From an uncultured Pelagibacteraceae bacterium (GTDB lineage: Bacteria; Pseudomonadota; Alphaproteobacteria; Pelagibacterales; Pelagibacteraceae): a stretch of 45,157 nt of DNA. The stretch covers positions 12,501-57,657 of the forward strand of contig CACKNV010000008.1 in NCBI GenBank assembly GCA_902601705.1, in the 5' to 3' direction. A program made the position numbers and the translations under genes. Below are positions 3,933-37,197 of this stretch, piece after piece. The notes under the pieces are model-generated. The model saw only the letters and a program-made list of their open reading frames with translations, did no database searches and had not been told where the DNA came from. Position 1 is the stretch's first letter; every line of letters starts with the position of its first letter.

Positions 3933-5005
3933 GCTTTTAAATTTTCTAGTTTCAGGTTTTGCTCTTTTAATCGAAGCTCTTGGTTCATTTCTTCATGAAT
4001 TTCCCCGCTTAAAAATTCATCTAATTTATGCAATGTTAAATTGATTCTATGATCAGTTACTCTTCCTTGAGGAAAATTATAAGTTCTAATCCTTTCTGAT
4101 CTATCGCCGGATCCTATTTGACTTCTTCTATTGCTTGATCTTTCTTGATCTTTTTTTCTTTTCTCAGCCTCATAAACTCTCGATCGTAAAATTTTTAATG
4201 CTTTGGCTTTATTTTTGTGCTGAGATTTTTCATCTTGCTGACTAACTACTACACCACTAGGCATGTGTGTAATTCTAACAGCGCTGTCTGTTGTATTAAC
4301 TGATTGCCCGCCTGGTCCTCCAGCTCTAAAAACATCTATTCTTAAATCAGATTCTTTTATTTCTACGTCAACTTCTTCAGCCTCTGGTAGAACAGCTACT
4401 GTAGCCGCTGATGTATGTACTCTTCCCTGCGTTTCGGTCTCAGGTATTCGTTGGACCCTGTGTACTCCTGACTCATATTTAAGATAAGAATAAATATCAT
4501 TTCCATTAACAGAAAAAATTACCTCTTTGAACCCTCCAGCTTCACTTTTAGAAATATTAATAATTTCTAATTTCCATTTTTTTTTTGAGCAAACTTTTTC
4601 ATACATCTTGAAAAGGTCTGCACAAAAAAGTGAAGCTTCTAATCCTCCAGTTCCAGCTCTAATTTCCACTATTGCATTTTTACTATCATCTTCATCTTTT
4701 GGTAATAGAAATACTTTTAATTTATTCTCATTTTTTTCTTTTTTTTCTTTTATCTCGTTTAAATCTTTTTGTGCTAGTTCTATAATTTCTTTATCGTTAG
4801 ATTTATCTTGAACTATGTTGAGTAAATCATTCTGCTCGTTTTCAAAATCTAAATACTCTTTAGCGACTTTAATAATATTTCCTAAATTTGAGTACTCTTT
4901 AGATTTTTTTGCATACAATTTAGAGTCAATATTTCCTGATGAAAGCTCTTTTTCCAACGCATTATGCCTATAAATAATGTCTCTCACTTTATCAATTGGT
5001 ACCAT
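3929..5005 (-). CDS. prfA: Peptide chain release factor 1
   Basis: Recognises UAA and UAG stop codons and triggers peptidyl-tRNA hydrolysis on the ribosome. The GGQ tripeptide is at 232-234 within [21 protein letters not shown]-type context, and the codon-reading PxT motif is PET at 188-190, identifying RF1 rather than RF2. The length of 358 residues is typical. It is first in a tight cluster with prmC and DUF4167; the gap to ispG upstream is 9 bases, so transcription probably continues from lysC-ispG. Start chosen at the ATG giving the usual VPIDKV N-terminus. Confidence 0.98.
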
Positions 5006-5014
5006 AATAAAGTT

Positions 5015-6100
5015 TTATTCTTTTGTTTTTTCTTCCACTAGTTTAACTACTTTTTCAATAATTTGTGAACTCGGTACTTTGGTATGAGGAATTCCTGAGA
5101 GGTATAAAAGGTTTTTATCTTTTCCACCGCCCGTCAAACCAATTTCTGTTTGAGCGGCTTCGCCTGGTCCATTAACTACGCATCCTATTATCGATAGATT
5201 AATAGGTTTTTTAATATGAGCTAATTTTTTCTCTAAAATTTTTACTGTTTCAATTACCGGAAAAGCTTGTCTAGCACATGATGGACAAGAAATAATGTTA
5301 ACTCCTCTTGATCGAATACCTAGTGATTTAAGAATTTCATAACCTGCCTTCACTTCATCAACTGGATCTGATGATAAAGAAACTCTAATAGTATCTCCTA
5401 TACCTTCCATTAAAAGCTGTCCAATACCTATTGAGGACTTAATGCTGCCTGTAAATAATCCTCCTGCCTCTGTTACTCCTAAGTGTAAAGGATAATTACA
5501 AATTTTTGATAACTTTTTGTAAGCTTTTACTGTTAAAAATATGTCTGAAGACTTCACACTTATTTTAAAATTAAAAAAATCACTATCCTCTAAAAGTTTT
5601 ATATTTTGTTGTGCGCTTTCTACTAGAGCCTCAGGACAAGGCTCTTTATATTTTTCTAATAAATTTTTATCTAAAGAACCAGCATTAACCCCAATACGAA
5701 TTGAGCAATTATTGCTTTTAGCTGCTTTTACAACCTCAAGAACTTTATTGTTAGTTCCAATATTGCCAGGATTTATTCTTAAGCAACTCGCACCCATTTC
5801 TGCTGCCTCTATAGCTCTTTTGTAATGAAAATGAATGTCTGCAACTATGGGTACAGAAACTTCCTTAATTATATTTTTAAGCGCTTTTGTTGATCTCTCA
5901 TCGGGACATGAAACTCGAACTATATCTGCTCCCGCTTCCTCTAAAGAAAGAATTTGTTTAACTGTACTCTTCACATCAGTTGTTAGAGTATTTGTCATAG
6001 ATTGAACACTTATCGGAGCGTCACCCCCAACGCTTACTTTGCCTACTTTAATTTTCTTAGTAGTTTTTCTTTTAATTATTCTATGAGGTCTTATTTCCAT
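5015..6100 (-). CDS. ispG: 4-hydroxy-3-methylbut-2-en-1-yl diphosphate synthase
   Basis: Penultimate enzyme of the MEP isoprenoid pathway: reduces methylerythritol cyclodiphosphate to HMBPP with a [4Fe-4S] cluster. The N-terminal TIM barrel starts with the family signature around 20-40 ([19 protein letters not shown]), and the cluster ligands C272 and C275 (SCPSCAR) and C307 ([11 protein letters not shown]) are in place, with the usual glutamate at 314. At 361 residues it lacks the insertion seen in plant/chlamydial forms. Its ATG overlaps the lysC stop in a TAATG junction, so it is coupled to lysC. Confidence 0.97.
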
Positions 6101-32548: not shown

Positions 32549-33635
32549 AAATAAGAATAGTAATTACTCAATTATTGTGGGTAAAAATTCTCTTAAAATT
32601 TTACCAAATAAAATTAGATTACTGTGCCCAAGAACAAAAAAAATTGCATTAGTTATAGATAAAAAAGTACCAAAAAAATTTAAAACGATATTAAAAAAAA
32701 AACTCAAAAAATATGAAGTTTTATTTATTCAATTTAATGCTAATGAAAAAAATAAATCTATTAATACAGTAAATTACTACTTAAAAATTTTACTCTCTAA
32801 AAATTTCAACCGTTCAGATTTAATAATCAGCGTTGGAGGAGGTATTACAGGAGATACAATTGGTTTTGTTGCGAGTATTTTTAAAAGGGGAATAAATTTT
32901 ATAAATATCCCGACAACACTACTTGCTCAAGTTGACTCGGCTGTTGGTGGAAAAACTGGTGTGAATTCAGTTTATGGAAAAAATTTAATTGGGTCATTTT
33001 ATCAGCCAAAATTAGTTATTAGCGACACCGCTTTTATAAACTCCTTGCCTAAAAGAGAAATGATTTGCGGTTTTGCTGAAATTTTGAAGCATTCAATTAT
33101 AAAAGATAAACATTTTTTTAAATGGTTAGAAAAAAATTCAAAATTAGTTTTTTCAAAAAGCTCTAAAGAATTAATCTACGCAATTAAAAAGAGTTGCGAA
33201 ATAAAAAACCACTTTGTGACACGTGACACAAATGAGAAAGGTATTAGAATGGTTTTAAATTTTGGACACACTTTCGCTCATGCTATTGAAATAAAAAATA
33301 ATTACTCAAAAAAAATTACTCATGGTGAAGCTGTTTTATCGGGTATGATTTTAGAAACAAAGCTTTCTGTGATTAAAAAAATCTGCTCTATGAAAACATT
33401 GATACGTATTTTGAGTTTTTATAAAAAAAATAGTTTAGAGTATACTTATAAAAAGTATAAACATCATAAATCAATTAATCAATTAATCCCTTTTTTAAAA
33501 AATGATAAAAAAAACAATGATGATAAAATTAATTTTATTCTTTTAAATAGAATTGGAAAAACTGCATTGCCTAATAAAAGTAAAATTTCGATAAGTAATT
33601 TGAAAAAGATGATTAAGTTTATTTCTCAATACTAA
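32523..33635 (+). CDS. aroB: 3-dehydroquinate synthase
   Basis: Second shikimate-pathway step, NAD- and metal-dependent. 370 residues with VGGGITGDTIGFVASIFKRG (NAD binding), PTTLLAQVDSAVGGKTGVN and the metal ligands in HGEAVLSGM and NFGHTFAHAIE. N-terminal part (IIVGKNSLKIL) as in other bacterial AroB. Start overlaps the aroK end by 26 bases, so coupled translation. The 3' end overlaps the convergent bolA gene by 17 bases. Confidence 0.97.
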   Translation: MKNQEIKFKNKNSNYSIIVGKNSLKILPNKIRLLCPRTKKIALVIDKKVPKKFKTILKKKLKKYEVLFIQFNANEKNKSINTVNYYLKILLSKNFNRSDLIISVGGGITGDTIGFVASIFKRGINFINIPTTLLAQVDSAVGGKTGVNSVYGKNLIGSFYQPKLVISDTAFINSLPKREMICGFAEILKHSIIKDKHFFKWLEKNSKLVFSKSSKELIYAIKKSCEIKNHFVTRDTNEKGIRMVLNFGHTFAHAIEIKNNYSKKITHGEAVLSGMILETKLSVIKKICSMKTLIRILSFYKKNSLEYTYKKYKHHKSINQLIPFLKNDKKNNDDKINFILLNRIGKTALPNKSKISISNLKKMIKFISQY

Positions 33636-33876
33636 TTTCTAAAGCATGTATTTTAGTTTCTAAATCCTCTTTCAAGATTTTCATTATCATCTTTTGAGCA
33701 TTGATTCTTGATAAAGAATTCAAATATGAAGATTTAATTTTTAATTTAAGATGAAATTTTTCTGGTGAGTAAAATTTATGCCCTTTATGTTTATGAGAAT
33801 TATCAACTATTTCAATATTTTCTAATTCTATCTCATTTTTTAATTTATTACAGATTTCTTCAAAATAAATTTTCAT
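33619..33876 (-). CDS. BolA family protein
   Basis: 85 residues with the BolA/IbaG class II KH-like fold: a helix start (FEEICNKLKNEIELENIEIVDNS), the loop HKGH with the conserved histidine that helps bind glutaredoxin-held [2Fe-2S] clusters, then FHLKLKIKS and the helix INAQKMIMKILKEDL. BolA proteins take part in Fe-S handling or regulation; the precise role here is unknown. The gene is divergent from the J-protein gene (30-base gap), a neighbourhood kept in many alphaproteobacteria. Confidence 0.9.
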   Translation of the reverse strand: MKIYFEEICNKLKNEIELENIEIVDNSHKHKGHKFYSPEKFHLKLKIKSSYLNSLSRINAQKMIMKILKEDLETKIHALEISIEK

Positions 33877-33906
33877 TGATTTAATTTTACTATATAGACT
33901 TATTCA

Positions 33907-34422
33907 ATGAAAATAATTTGTGATTGGGAAAATTGTAATGAAATAGGCTCTTACAAAGCGCCTGTAGAAAAAGATAATAGCAAAAAGTATAGATTGCTTT
34001 GTTTAAATCATATTAAAATTTTTAACAAAAATTGGAATTATTTTGAAAATATGAATGATCAAGAAATTGAATTTTTTATAAAATCTGATTTAACATGGCA
34101 CAAATCTACGAAAACCTTTGGGTCATCAGAAAATTTTTTCAATATTTTGTGGAACAATGCTTTAGATGATAAATTAAATATATTTAAAAGCTCAAATTTT
34201 AGAGATTTTAAGAAAACAAAAATGTCTCAGCAAGATAAAGATGCTCTACAAGTAATGGAATTAAACCAAGAGGTAAAATGGGAGCAAATTCAATCAAAAT
34301 TCAAAGAACTTGTAAAAAAATACCATCCTGATAAAAACCAAGGCAGTAAAAAATTTGAAGATAAATTAAAAAAAATTACTTTGGCATACAGCCAGCTTAA
34401 AAAGACTTTAGGAAAAAAATGA
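33907..34422 (+). CDS. J-domain protein with N-terminal cysteine motif
   Basis: 171 residues. The C-terminal third is a J domain with HPD at 140-142 ([20 protein letters not shown]), which stimulates a DnaK-type chaperone ATPase. The N-terminus has C5, C10, C32 and H35 (CDWENC...CLNH), a possible zinc site. It ends 4 bases inside cobS, so it is translated with CobS/CobT. Alphaproteobacteria commonly have this J protein next to BolA and CobST; a chaperone role for this group is inferred. Confidence 0.9.
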
Positions 34423-35396
34423 GTTCAGAACATTTATTACAAAAAACAGACATCAAATTGTCAGTGAAACAAACATTTGGATTTGAAAGCGATATGCAAG
34501 TTGGAGCTTTTTCAAAAAAAAATCAGTATGTTCCTAAGATTGATCCTGATTATAAATTTGATAAGGATACCACTCTAGCAATTTTAGCTGGATTTTCTTT
34601 TAATAAAAGAGTTTTAATTCAAGGTTACCATGGAACAGGTAAATCTACTCACATCGAACAAGTAGCAGCTAGACTTAACTGGCCATGTGTCAGAGTTAAT
34701 TTAGATAGTCACATAAGCAGAATAGATTTAATAGGCAAAGATGCAATAATATTAAAAGATGGCAAACAAGTTACAGAGTTTAAGGAAGGTATTTTACCTT
34801 GGTCAATCCAAAATCCTGTTGCATTAGTTTTTGATGAATATGATGCAGGAAGGCCGGACGTGATGTTTGTAATACAAAGAGTTTTAGAAAGCGAAGGAAA
34901 TTTTACATTACTTGATAAAAATAAAGTTTTGCAGCAACACGATTTATTTAGAATTTTTGCAACAACAAATACTGTTGGGCTAGGTGATACAACTGGTTTG
35001 TATCATGGTACGCAACAAATCAATCAAGGTCAAATGGATAGATGGAATATTGTCTCAACGTTAAATTATCTTCCTTTTGAAAAAGAATTAGATATAGTTA
35101 TGTCCAAGAATAAAAACTTTAATAATAAAGAAGGAAAAGAACTTTTATCAAACATGATAAAGGTAGCTGATCTTACAAGAAAAGGTTTTATAAACGGTGA
35201 TATCTCTACTGTTATGAGTCCGCGTACAGTTTTACACTGGGCAGAAAATACAAGTATATTCAAAGATCAAGGTTATGCTTTTAGAATTACATTTTTAAAT
35301 AAATGTGATGAATTAGAGAAAAAAATAATTTCCGAATATTACCAAAGATGCTTTGGTGAAGACCTGCCAGAGTCTTCAATCAATATCACTTTATAA
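34419..35396 (+). CDS. cobS: CobS-type AAA+ ATPase
   Basis: 325 residues, MoxR-like AAA+ ATPase with Walker [10 protein letters not shown] (69-77), Walker B ALVFDE (135-140), sensor region [12 protein letters not shown] and an arginine-rich end. An N-terminal CobS extension (about 10-45) is present. In cobalamin makers CobS drives the CobN cobaltochelatase with CobT; no CobN or other cobalamin gene is in this window and SAR11 is not known to make B12 de novo. So the substrate here is likely something else. Overlaps the J-protein gene by 4 bases and precedes CobT by one base. Confidence 0.93.
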
Positions 35397-35397
35397 A

Positions 35398-37197
35398 GTG
35401 GAAAATAAAAAAGAAAAAATAGCTGATTTCAAAACTGCAATTAGTTCTACAGTAAGATCATTATCTAATTCAGAAAATATTGAAGTTTCATTTGGAAATG
35501 ATAACCCCAAATCAGAAACAAATTCAATTAGGCTTCCAGAATTTACAGCAATTAATAACAAGTTAAATTATAATCAAATTAGAGCGGTAGCAGATTCAAA
35601 ATCTTTAAGACGTAGATTTTCAGATCCTAAAACATTGAAAAAATATGAACCTGACGGAAATATATCTAAACAATTATATAAAATTTCAGAAAAAATTAGA
35701 TGTGAAAAGATTGGAACAAGCTATTTTAAAGGAGTAAAAAACAATATTGAAACTTTCTATCAAGAAAGACTATCCGGCTTAGACCTTAAAAGCAGTGAAG
35801 ATAAAATTGTGGAGTCTTTTGAAAACTACTTGAGAACAAAATTTCTAAATTTTGAGAATAATATACAAATCGATAAAAAACTTAAATCCTATAAGAAAGA
35901 CCTCAATGAAAAATTTAAAGATAAGATAAATAAGTTGAGTGACTTAACCTTAGATCAAGAAAAATTTAACTCATTAATTTCTAAGCTCATCACAAATATG
36001 AATCTCGATGAAAACATAGATGAAGAGGAAAAAAAAGATGACGAACAAAATAATAAAGATAATCAAAATAAACCTGATAACCAAGAGAAACAAGCAAAAG
36101 AGAAAGAAGATAAACAGGAGGAGATGTCCATAGACTCTGCTATTCCTGATCTTGAAAATGAGGCAAAAGAGTCAGACCAAGCTGAGGAAGACATTGAAAT
36201 AGAAGATAGTTCTCAGCCTGATTTAAGAAAAAAAGGTAAGAGTGCTTTAGGTGACATTAATTATAAAACCTATACCGAAGAATTCGACGAAATCATAAAA
36301 GCAGAAGAATTAGAGAGTGTTGAAGAACTTACGAGACTAAGAAAAAATTTAGATCAACAATTATTACAACTTAAAAATTTTATTTCTAAACTTGCTAATA
36401 AATTACAAAGGAAACTATTAGCAAAACAAAACAGATCTTGGAACTTTGACCTTGAAGAAGGATTATTAGATACTTCAAAATTACCAAGAATAATTATGGA
36501 TCCATTTAATTCTTTATCTTTTAAAAAAGAAAAAGATATTGAGTTCAAAGATACATTGGTAACAATTTTAATAGATAACTCCGGCTCTATGAGAGGCAAA
36601 CCTATTTCAGTTGCAGCGATCTGCGCAGACATACTTTCTAGAACATTAGAGAGGTGTGCAGTTAAAGTTGAGATACTTGGCTTTACTACGAAACATTGGA
36701 AGGGAGGATCCTCTAGAGAAAAATGGATGAAAAATGATAAACCGACTTTACCAGGAAGGTTAAACGATCTTAGACACATAATTTACAAATCTGCGGATAC
36801 ACCTTGGAGACAGGCAAAAAATAATATGGGGCTTATGCTTAAAGAGGGTTTGCTTAAAGAAAATATTGATGGAGAAGCACTTAAATGGGCTTACAACAAA
36901 ATGAATAGAAGAAAAGAAGAAAGAAAAATTCTAATGGTTATATCAGATGGAGCTCCAGTTGATGATTCTACATTATCAACAAATACAAGTGACTATCTGG
37001 AGTCTAATCTTAAAAAGACAGTTAAATGGATTGAGAGTAAAACCAATATAGAGTTGTTAGCTATAGGAATTGGACACGATGTTACAAGATACTATAATCA
37101 AGCAGTTAAAATTACTGATGTTCAGGATTTAGGTGATGTTATGATAAATCAACTAACTGATCTTTTTGTTGAAAAAAATAAAAAAACAATTCACTAA
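35398..37197 (+). CDS. cobT: CobT-type VWA protein
   Basis: 599 residues from GTG at 35398, one base after the cobS stop; an earlier TTG start (35353) would only add 15 residues read from the cobS frame overlap. The N-terminal CobT domain includes [15 protein letters not shown]; a highly acidic, Asp/Glu/Gln-rich linker spans about 200-295; the C-terminal VWA domain has the MIDAS motif DNSGS (393-397) and [12 protein letters not shown]. It forms the partner of CobS, an AAA+/VWA pair like MoxR-VWA. Function beyond cobaltochelation is uncertain; see findings. Confidence 0.93.

Follow-up and report, generated by a model that had tools for sequence, protein, structure and literature searches.

We analysed a stretch of 45,157 nucleotides (hereafter the window: contig CACKNV010000008.1 of GenBank assembly GCA_902601705.1, positions 12,501 to 57,657 of the forward strand) from an uncultured Pelagibacteraceae bacterium, in which a bolA-like gene stands divergent from three genes encoding a zinc-finger J-domain protein (J protein), the AAA+ ATPase CobS and its VWA/MIDAS partner CobT. 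CobS and CobT (together CobST) work without CobN, the large subunit of the cobaltochelatase CobNST, because 114 of the 233 CobT carriers sampled in the class have no CobN, carriers with and without CobN share the same gene order and are interspersed on the CobST tree, and the ratio of nonsynonymous to synonymous substitution rates (dN/dS) is low. A role for CobST distinct from cobaltochelation by CobNST, as put forward in a preliminary description of this DNA, is thus borne out. The main job of the pair is probably something other than cobalt insertion for B12, and perhaps the repair of metal-containing proteins.

CobN and B12 genes in the genome, the order and the class

The family PF02514, which stands for CobN and by its name also counts the Mg-chelatase subunit BchH, had no match in the window's own genome (1.08 Mb in 15 contigs, 94.85% complete), where the preliminary description had proposed that CobN be sought; CbiC/CobH (PF02570), the sole corrin-pathway marker used, other cobalamin genes not having been searched genome-wide, had none either. 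CobT is present in 114 of the 117 genomes of the window's order and in all 76 of those with at least 90% completeness and at most 5% contamination, and PF02514 in none of the 117.

The class was sampled by an even draw of 289 genomes of at least 90% completeness, with matches accepted at E 0.001 or better. CobT was found in 233 of them (173 above the TIGR01651 cut-off), CobN or BchH in 121 and CbiC/CobH in 108. CobT and CobN occur together in 119 genomes, CobT alone in 114, CobN alone in 2 (G006 and G209) and neither in 54 (Fisher p=1.9e-12). The association is one-sided: CobN accompanies CobT (119 of 121 CobN carriers), and CobN is not needed by CobT. Of the 114 CobN-less CobT matches, 74 lie above the TIGR01651 cut-off, and 111 of the 114 genomes also have no CbiC/CobH; the other three (G020, G111 and G249) keep CbiC/CobH, so that their CobN may be missing through assembly. 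Conservation of the cluster in genomes lacking CobN had been suggested as a check, and the CobT carriers are indeed not confined to B12 makers. Since the cluster is widespread in CobN-less genomes, the two outcomes named beforehand as speaking against a separate role, a CobN gene or complete cobalamin pathway elsewhere in the genome and restriction to B12-making relatives, did not appear.

In a draw of 299 genomes from the whole phylum, CobT matched in 118; the 102 matches above the cut-off all fell within the class, and weaker ones occurred in 10 genomes outside it. Eighty named loci, collected by a search with the CobS alignment, carry mostly alphaproteobacterial labels, with a few metagenome-assembled genomes (MAGs) labelled Gammaproteobacteria, Proteobacteria or just bacterium. 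CobN was detected in 13 of 21 named CobS-bearing genomes searched and not in the other 8 (Oleisolibacter albus and MAGs labelled Caulobacter (2), Phenylobacterium (2), Parvibaculum, Sphingomonadales and Hyphomonadaceae); single absences among the MAGs are weak evidence because their completeness is not stated. The control genome of Caulobacter vibrioides, which we take to be one species with C. crescentus, has a CobT match, alone among the controls, and no CobN match; on this ground and on the labels of the named loci, the class is taken to be Alphaproteobacteria.

These counts make it very improbable that CobST is still a cobaltochelatase or a B12-salvage machine acting through an undetected large subunit or on scavenged corrinoids. 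Such a function would fit the almost constant company of CobT among CobN carriers, and also the PDB entries 9uka, 9ukb and 9ukc, which are listed for CobN, CobS and CobT alike; CobST can therefore grip a large client, and might grip others. It would likewise fit the B12-binding domain PF02310, matched in 77 of the 117 genomes of the order (63 above the cut-off) and common in the order's second family, f143. The only PF02310 match in the window's genome, however, scores 19.8 bits, below the cut-off of 32.1; seven genomes assembled as single contigs and belonging to the same family as the window (G175, G251, G294, G298, G300, G305 and G311) carry CobT with no B12-binding match; and PF02514 was found in none of the order's 117 genomes. 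In many f143 genomes (e.g., G387:C2:24519-24866) the B12-binding domain sits in an open reading frame of about 720-736 amino acids, perhaps a methylmalonyl-CoA mutase, which lies on the strand opposite to cobT and about 1.4 kb beyond that gene's 3' end.

Gene order, phylogeny and selection

Gene neighbourhoods were compared for the window and 100 further loci: 60 came from the 110 class genomes that lack CobN and do not belong to the window's family (in most cases one for each family), 20 from the 119 CobN-bearing genomes and 20 from the order. A minus-strand bolA followed by plus-strand J, cobS and cobT was conserved in 43 of the 60 CobN-less loci, 18 of the 20 CobN-bearing loci and all 21 loci of the order including the window. 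J together with CobS beside CobT was found in 48/60, 20/20 and 21/21 loci, respectively, and CobS beside CobT in 56/60, 20/20 and 21/21; of the 101 stretches, 61 contain AroB and 55 contain L28. The arrangement recurs across the class and is therefore not due to chance. Among the named loci, 66 have 3 kb or more of flank upstream of CobS, and 51 of these contain J and BolA there; CobT directly follows CobS in 65 of the 75 with sufficient flank on that side. Eight loci labelled Caulobacterales or kin (L234, L235, L242, L268, L270, L280, L285 and L294) have no CobT within 3-7 kb downstream of CobS (flank about 7 kb, in L285 only about 3 kb), so the pair does not form one operon there, and in L254 and L281 CobT follows about 4 kb downstream of CobS. 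A CobS-CobT pair with no adjoining J was seen in L111, L115, L117, L118 and L119, whose genomes measure 1.5-2.0 Mb.

An unrooted CobST tree, which does not distinguish gain of CobN from its loss, was computed with FastTree from the CobT of 141 loci, with CobS in 134 (the 101 neighbourhood loci and 40 further CobN-bearing ones, some picked for a CobN-less member of the same family); several of its branches are long. The CobN label requires at least 33 changes on this tree, 20 of them forced by the starred branches, against a mean of 45.8 for shuffled labels, and is therefore clustered. Judged from this topology, the CobN-less copies are not a separate subfamily. Relaxed selection in the CobN-less branches did not reach significance in the sister pairs (every two-row fork with one CobN-bearing and one CobN-less row, n=15): in 11 of the 15 the CobN-less branch was the longer one, and the median factor over the pairs was 1.14 (p=0.12 in a sign test).

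In comparisons of the window with the four relatives nearest to it, dN/dS was 0.017-0.031 for CobS, 0.023-0.034 for J and 0.039-0.065 for CobT, compared with 0.087-0.173 for AroB and 0.024-0.095 for L28; these values were calculated from the real start codons of the window and are rough, since dS was near or above 1 in most pairs. Walker A and Walker B are intact in 133 of 134 CobS proteins (the exception, L194, is a fragment of 125 amino acids), the Sensor-1 pattern is found in 131 of 134, and both MIDAS segments are intact in all 141 CobT proteins, CobN-less ones included. The mean column identity of CobS was 79% (n=34 members). CobST is thus under strong purifying selection. A relic of lost B12 synthesis whose deletion is pending might well leave CobN-less loci interspersed with CobN-bearing ones on the tree, as observed. 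Yet intact motifs, high CobS identity and low dN/dS argue that the pair is not a relic; dN/dS lies below that of AroB, the lengthening of the CobN-less branches is slight, no internal stop was seen among the CobT matches listed, and CobST has been kept in nearly all genomes of an order in which they measure only 0.7-1.5 Mb. We regard this explanation as hardly credible.

The gene cluster in the window

The four genes were found where the preliminary description had placed them, with their Walker, MIDAS and HPD motifs intact. The bolA-like gene (33619-33876, minus strand; 85 amino acids; PF01722, 56.1 bits, cut-off 25.7) is divergent from J-cobS-cobT, a placement that is conserved, and its start lies 30 bases from that of the J gene (33907-34422, plus strand; 171 amino acids), which overlaps cobS by 4 bases; cobS and cobT are separated by one base. 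The three plus-strand genes are presumably co-transcribed. The cobS gene (34419-35396, plus strand; 325 amino acids) meets the equivalog-level model TIGR01650 (571 bits, cut-off 558.55) and matches PF07728 (AAA_5), and its match to PF07726 (AAA_3) stays below the cut-off (22.2 against 27 bits). Its Walker A (GYHGTGKST, 34623-34649) follows the pattern G..G[TVS]GKS, and its Walker B (ALVFDEYD, 34821-34844) a DE.D-type pattern. The cobT gene (35398-37197, plus strand; 599 amino acids, GTG start) matches PF11775 (E=1.1e-90) and PF06213 (E=1.5e-39), and TIGR01651 over nearly its full length with 651 bits, below the cut-off of 759.05. Its MIDAS (DNSGSM, 36574-36591; pattern D.SGSM) and second MIDAS segment (SDGAPVD, 36943-36963; pattern SDG.P.D) are on the same strand. 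The window has adjacent AAA+ and VWA genes with their motifs intact.

Downstream, cobT meets a vitamin/queuosine-precursor transporter gene (PF02592, TIGR00697; 37194-37769) tail to tail and shares its last 4 bases with it; L28 comes next. On the other side, the distance from aroB to bolA (window 33635-33876) is about 1.3 kb shorter in the window and in numerous loci of the same family than most relatives show, which would fit the loss of an intervening gene.

The J protein and its zinc domain

The J domain proper (PF00226) occupies amino acids 115-166 and has an invariant HPD triad (H140, P141, D142; 34324-34332, plus strand; n=68). A zinc-like motif in the N-terminus had been described as Cys4-His; the motif is there, in the form Cys3-His (C5, C10, C32 and H35, C-x4-C-x21-C-x2-H; 33919-34011, plus strand), and its residues are the presumed zinc ligands. 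Apart from HPD, these four residues and N40 are the sole invariant columns among the 68 aligned J proteins, and the 4/21 spacing is kept in 105 of 119 motif-bearing J proteins. An AlphaFold2 model of the whole protein (mean predicted local distance difference test score, pLDDT, 84.5) has residues 1-60 in blocks of 86-97, then a weak linker and the J domain; a model of just the N-terminal domain has lower confidence (pLDDT 77.4).

Pfam searches with the N-terminal domain of 56 members had a best E of 0.017, and no family was matched by more than 4 of them. Foldseek with this domain alone gave nothing at E 0.001 or below; the first-ranked row, from the disaggregase ClpG (one of its domains), had E 1.3, which proves nothing, and was discarded as a fold relative. 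For the whole-J model, the Foldseek rows (50 of 81; best E 0.015) were J domains or chains containing one. The zinc-finger domain of J is apparently undescribed.

Proposed mechanism and its weighing

We favour, with modest confidence, the view that CobS-CobT is a remodelling machine of the AAA+/VWA (MoxR/VWA) type with a main role independent of CobN, which would be one client in B12 makers. CobS hexamers would hydrolyse ATP, the metal-dependent MIDAS face of CobT would present a protein client, and the ATP-driven motion would open this client, allowing the insertion of a metal or cofactor or the resetting of a damaged protein. With its Cys3-His zinc finger as an anchor, the J protein would recruit Hsp70 to these clients or to neighbouring ones, and the divergent BolA, a protein linked to iron and Fe-S handling, would couple the system to iron or Fe-S status. 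Where B12 is made, CobN would be one client with corrin as its substrate; the lineage of the window and many others would have only the remaining client(s). A wider version holds that CobST is misnamed across the Alphaproteobacteria: its ancestral and chief role would be that of a near-universal AAA+/VWA metalloprotein remodeller, with an undescribed zinc-finger J co-chaperone and a tie to BolA, and cobalt insertion for B12 would be a side use. This version we hold as tentative, its chances falling a little short of even.

A metal-related client is suggested by a transposon screen of C. crescentus CB15, the available part of which states that disruption of copper-fitness genes had no strong effect on fitness under ethylenediaminetetraacetic acid (EDTA) 'except for cobT (CCNA_01367)' (PMC12004947); cobT is described there as a predicted B12 component, and the EDTA effect is named without value or sign. 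This phenotype is unlikely to reflect cobaltochelation by CobNST, because the control genome of the species has no CobN match. The preliminary description had proposed a metal-cofactor or chaperone module: its CobN-free role stands, and for metal-cofactor insertion, which may be part of that role, the Caulobacter screen is the single independent hint.

A search of the main texts of the open-access literature gave no paper on the BolA-J-CobST module or on CobN-less CobST in Alphaproteobacteria. The CobS and CobT families and the idea of metal insertion by AAA+/VWA pairs were already known, and the CobN-less module is apparently new. In the part of PMC4303638 available, a gene named cobT is proposed to mark the entire B12 pathway (two different genes share that name); the finding that about half of the sampled CobT carriers (114/233) do without the enzyme for which CobT is named may bear on such use.

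Several points weigh against the remodelling reading. The metal link comes from a single sentence of the available text of PMC12004947, and the main text of PMC8224329, one of its three copper references, has no cobT. As many as 40 of the 114 CobN-less CobT matches, the window's among them, fall below the TIGR01651 cut-off, and within the order only 33 of 117 genomes exceed it. Against a fifth, more distant relative, dN/dS of CobT rises to 0.181 (CobS 0.045, AroB 0.311, BolA 0.294; no value for J and L28). BolA is under weaker constraint (dN/dS 0.081-0.233 with the same four nearest relatives), and in all five comparisons its dN is above that of the other three genes of the cluster. J, BolA or CobS is missing beside CobT in 17 of the 60 CobN-less loci, and a strong J match (E 1e-30 or better) is kept in 33 of the 56 CobT-less class genomes. 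The idea of the four genes as one module, as first described, is therefore sustained in its shared gene order and weakened, by the last three observations, as regards a single machine.

Since strong J matches persist without CobT, J has work apart from CobST, and we rejected it as an obligate partner of the pair. In 20 CobT-less J loci (L203-L222), BolA adjoins J in 4 (3 divergent, 1 on the same strand), and aroB lies upstream of J in 4. It seems that the J locus is the older part of the cluster and that some genomes have since lost CobST from it. In one of these loci (L210 of G258, 4424-5410) a full-length cobS follows J, with no CobT match in the locus nor, by TIGR01651, in the genome.

The separability of J is what would be expected of a general co-chaperone, and it bears on another explanation, namely that CobST acts with J and Hsp70 in general protein quality control, on aggregated or misassembled proteins at large, the chelator and copper phenotypes being indirect. 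The position of J in the same gene string with its HPD intact, and Midasin as the nearest relative of the CobS ATPase core outside its own family, agree with this. It accounts less well for the BolA neighbourhood, and for the Caulobacter screen, which in the available text singles out cobT under EDTA among the copper-fitness genes (PMC12004947). On balance we think general quality control rather unlikely as the main role, and retain remodelling with a metal-related client.

Comparison with known systems

CobST shares with the CobNST cobaltochelatase the CobS and CobT families, intact Walker and MIDAS motifs, the absence of a separate clade and the neighbourhood found in CobN-bearing relatives; it differs in that the window's genome has no match for CobN or CbiC/CobH and its CobT stays below the TIGR01651 cut-off. 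Beyond its own family, the best PDB sequence match of the CobS core is Midasin (E=2.9e-25), with CbbQ and NorQ next. Midasin (Rea1) couples AAA+ motion to a MIDAS domain, within a single giant chain that serves eukaryotic ribosome assembly.

In phages, CobS/CobT-like pairs may act without CobN, as distant PHROGs families matched by the window (34419-37197) would allow: phrog_249, labelled porphyrin biosynthesis, matches CobS (E 5.9e-49) and phrog_1576, of unknown function, CobT (E 9.6e-56). One scan of viral_contigs with the window's CobT gave 24 pattern matches and no relative, and the PADLOC defence families had no match to CobT or J at E 0.001, with CobS matching IetA weakly.

The MoxR-type pairs raise the question of whether CobST is dedicated to one respiratory or Fe-S enzyme. 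NorQ-NorD has nitric oxide reductase as its client. RavA-ViaA has complex I and fumarate reductase, according to the available part of PMC10743472. The shared AAA+/VWA architecture and the similarity of CobS to NorQ and CbbQ are in favour of such a dedication; the genes 3' of cobT, however, differ among the 15 loci read by eye, with no single enzyme gene recurring, and we consider it improbable. RavA-ViaA, NorQ-NorD and CbbQ-CbbO resemble CobST in having adjacent AAA+ and MIDAS/VWA genes and no tetrapyrrole-binding large subunit (available part of PMC10743472, and in part general background), whereas CobST forms a family of its own and is preceded by a J protein gene. A parallel in composition is offered by ChlI/ChlD pairs without ChlH or CobN, which likewise comprise the small and medium chelatase subunits and no large one, but occur in other lineages and not as J-CobS-CobT; their function without the large subunit is called unexplored in the available part of PMC9227772, and with CobST the role of chelatase motor subunits that have no large partner becomes experimentally approachable in Caulobacter.

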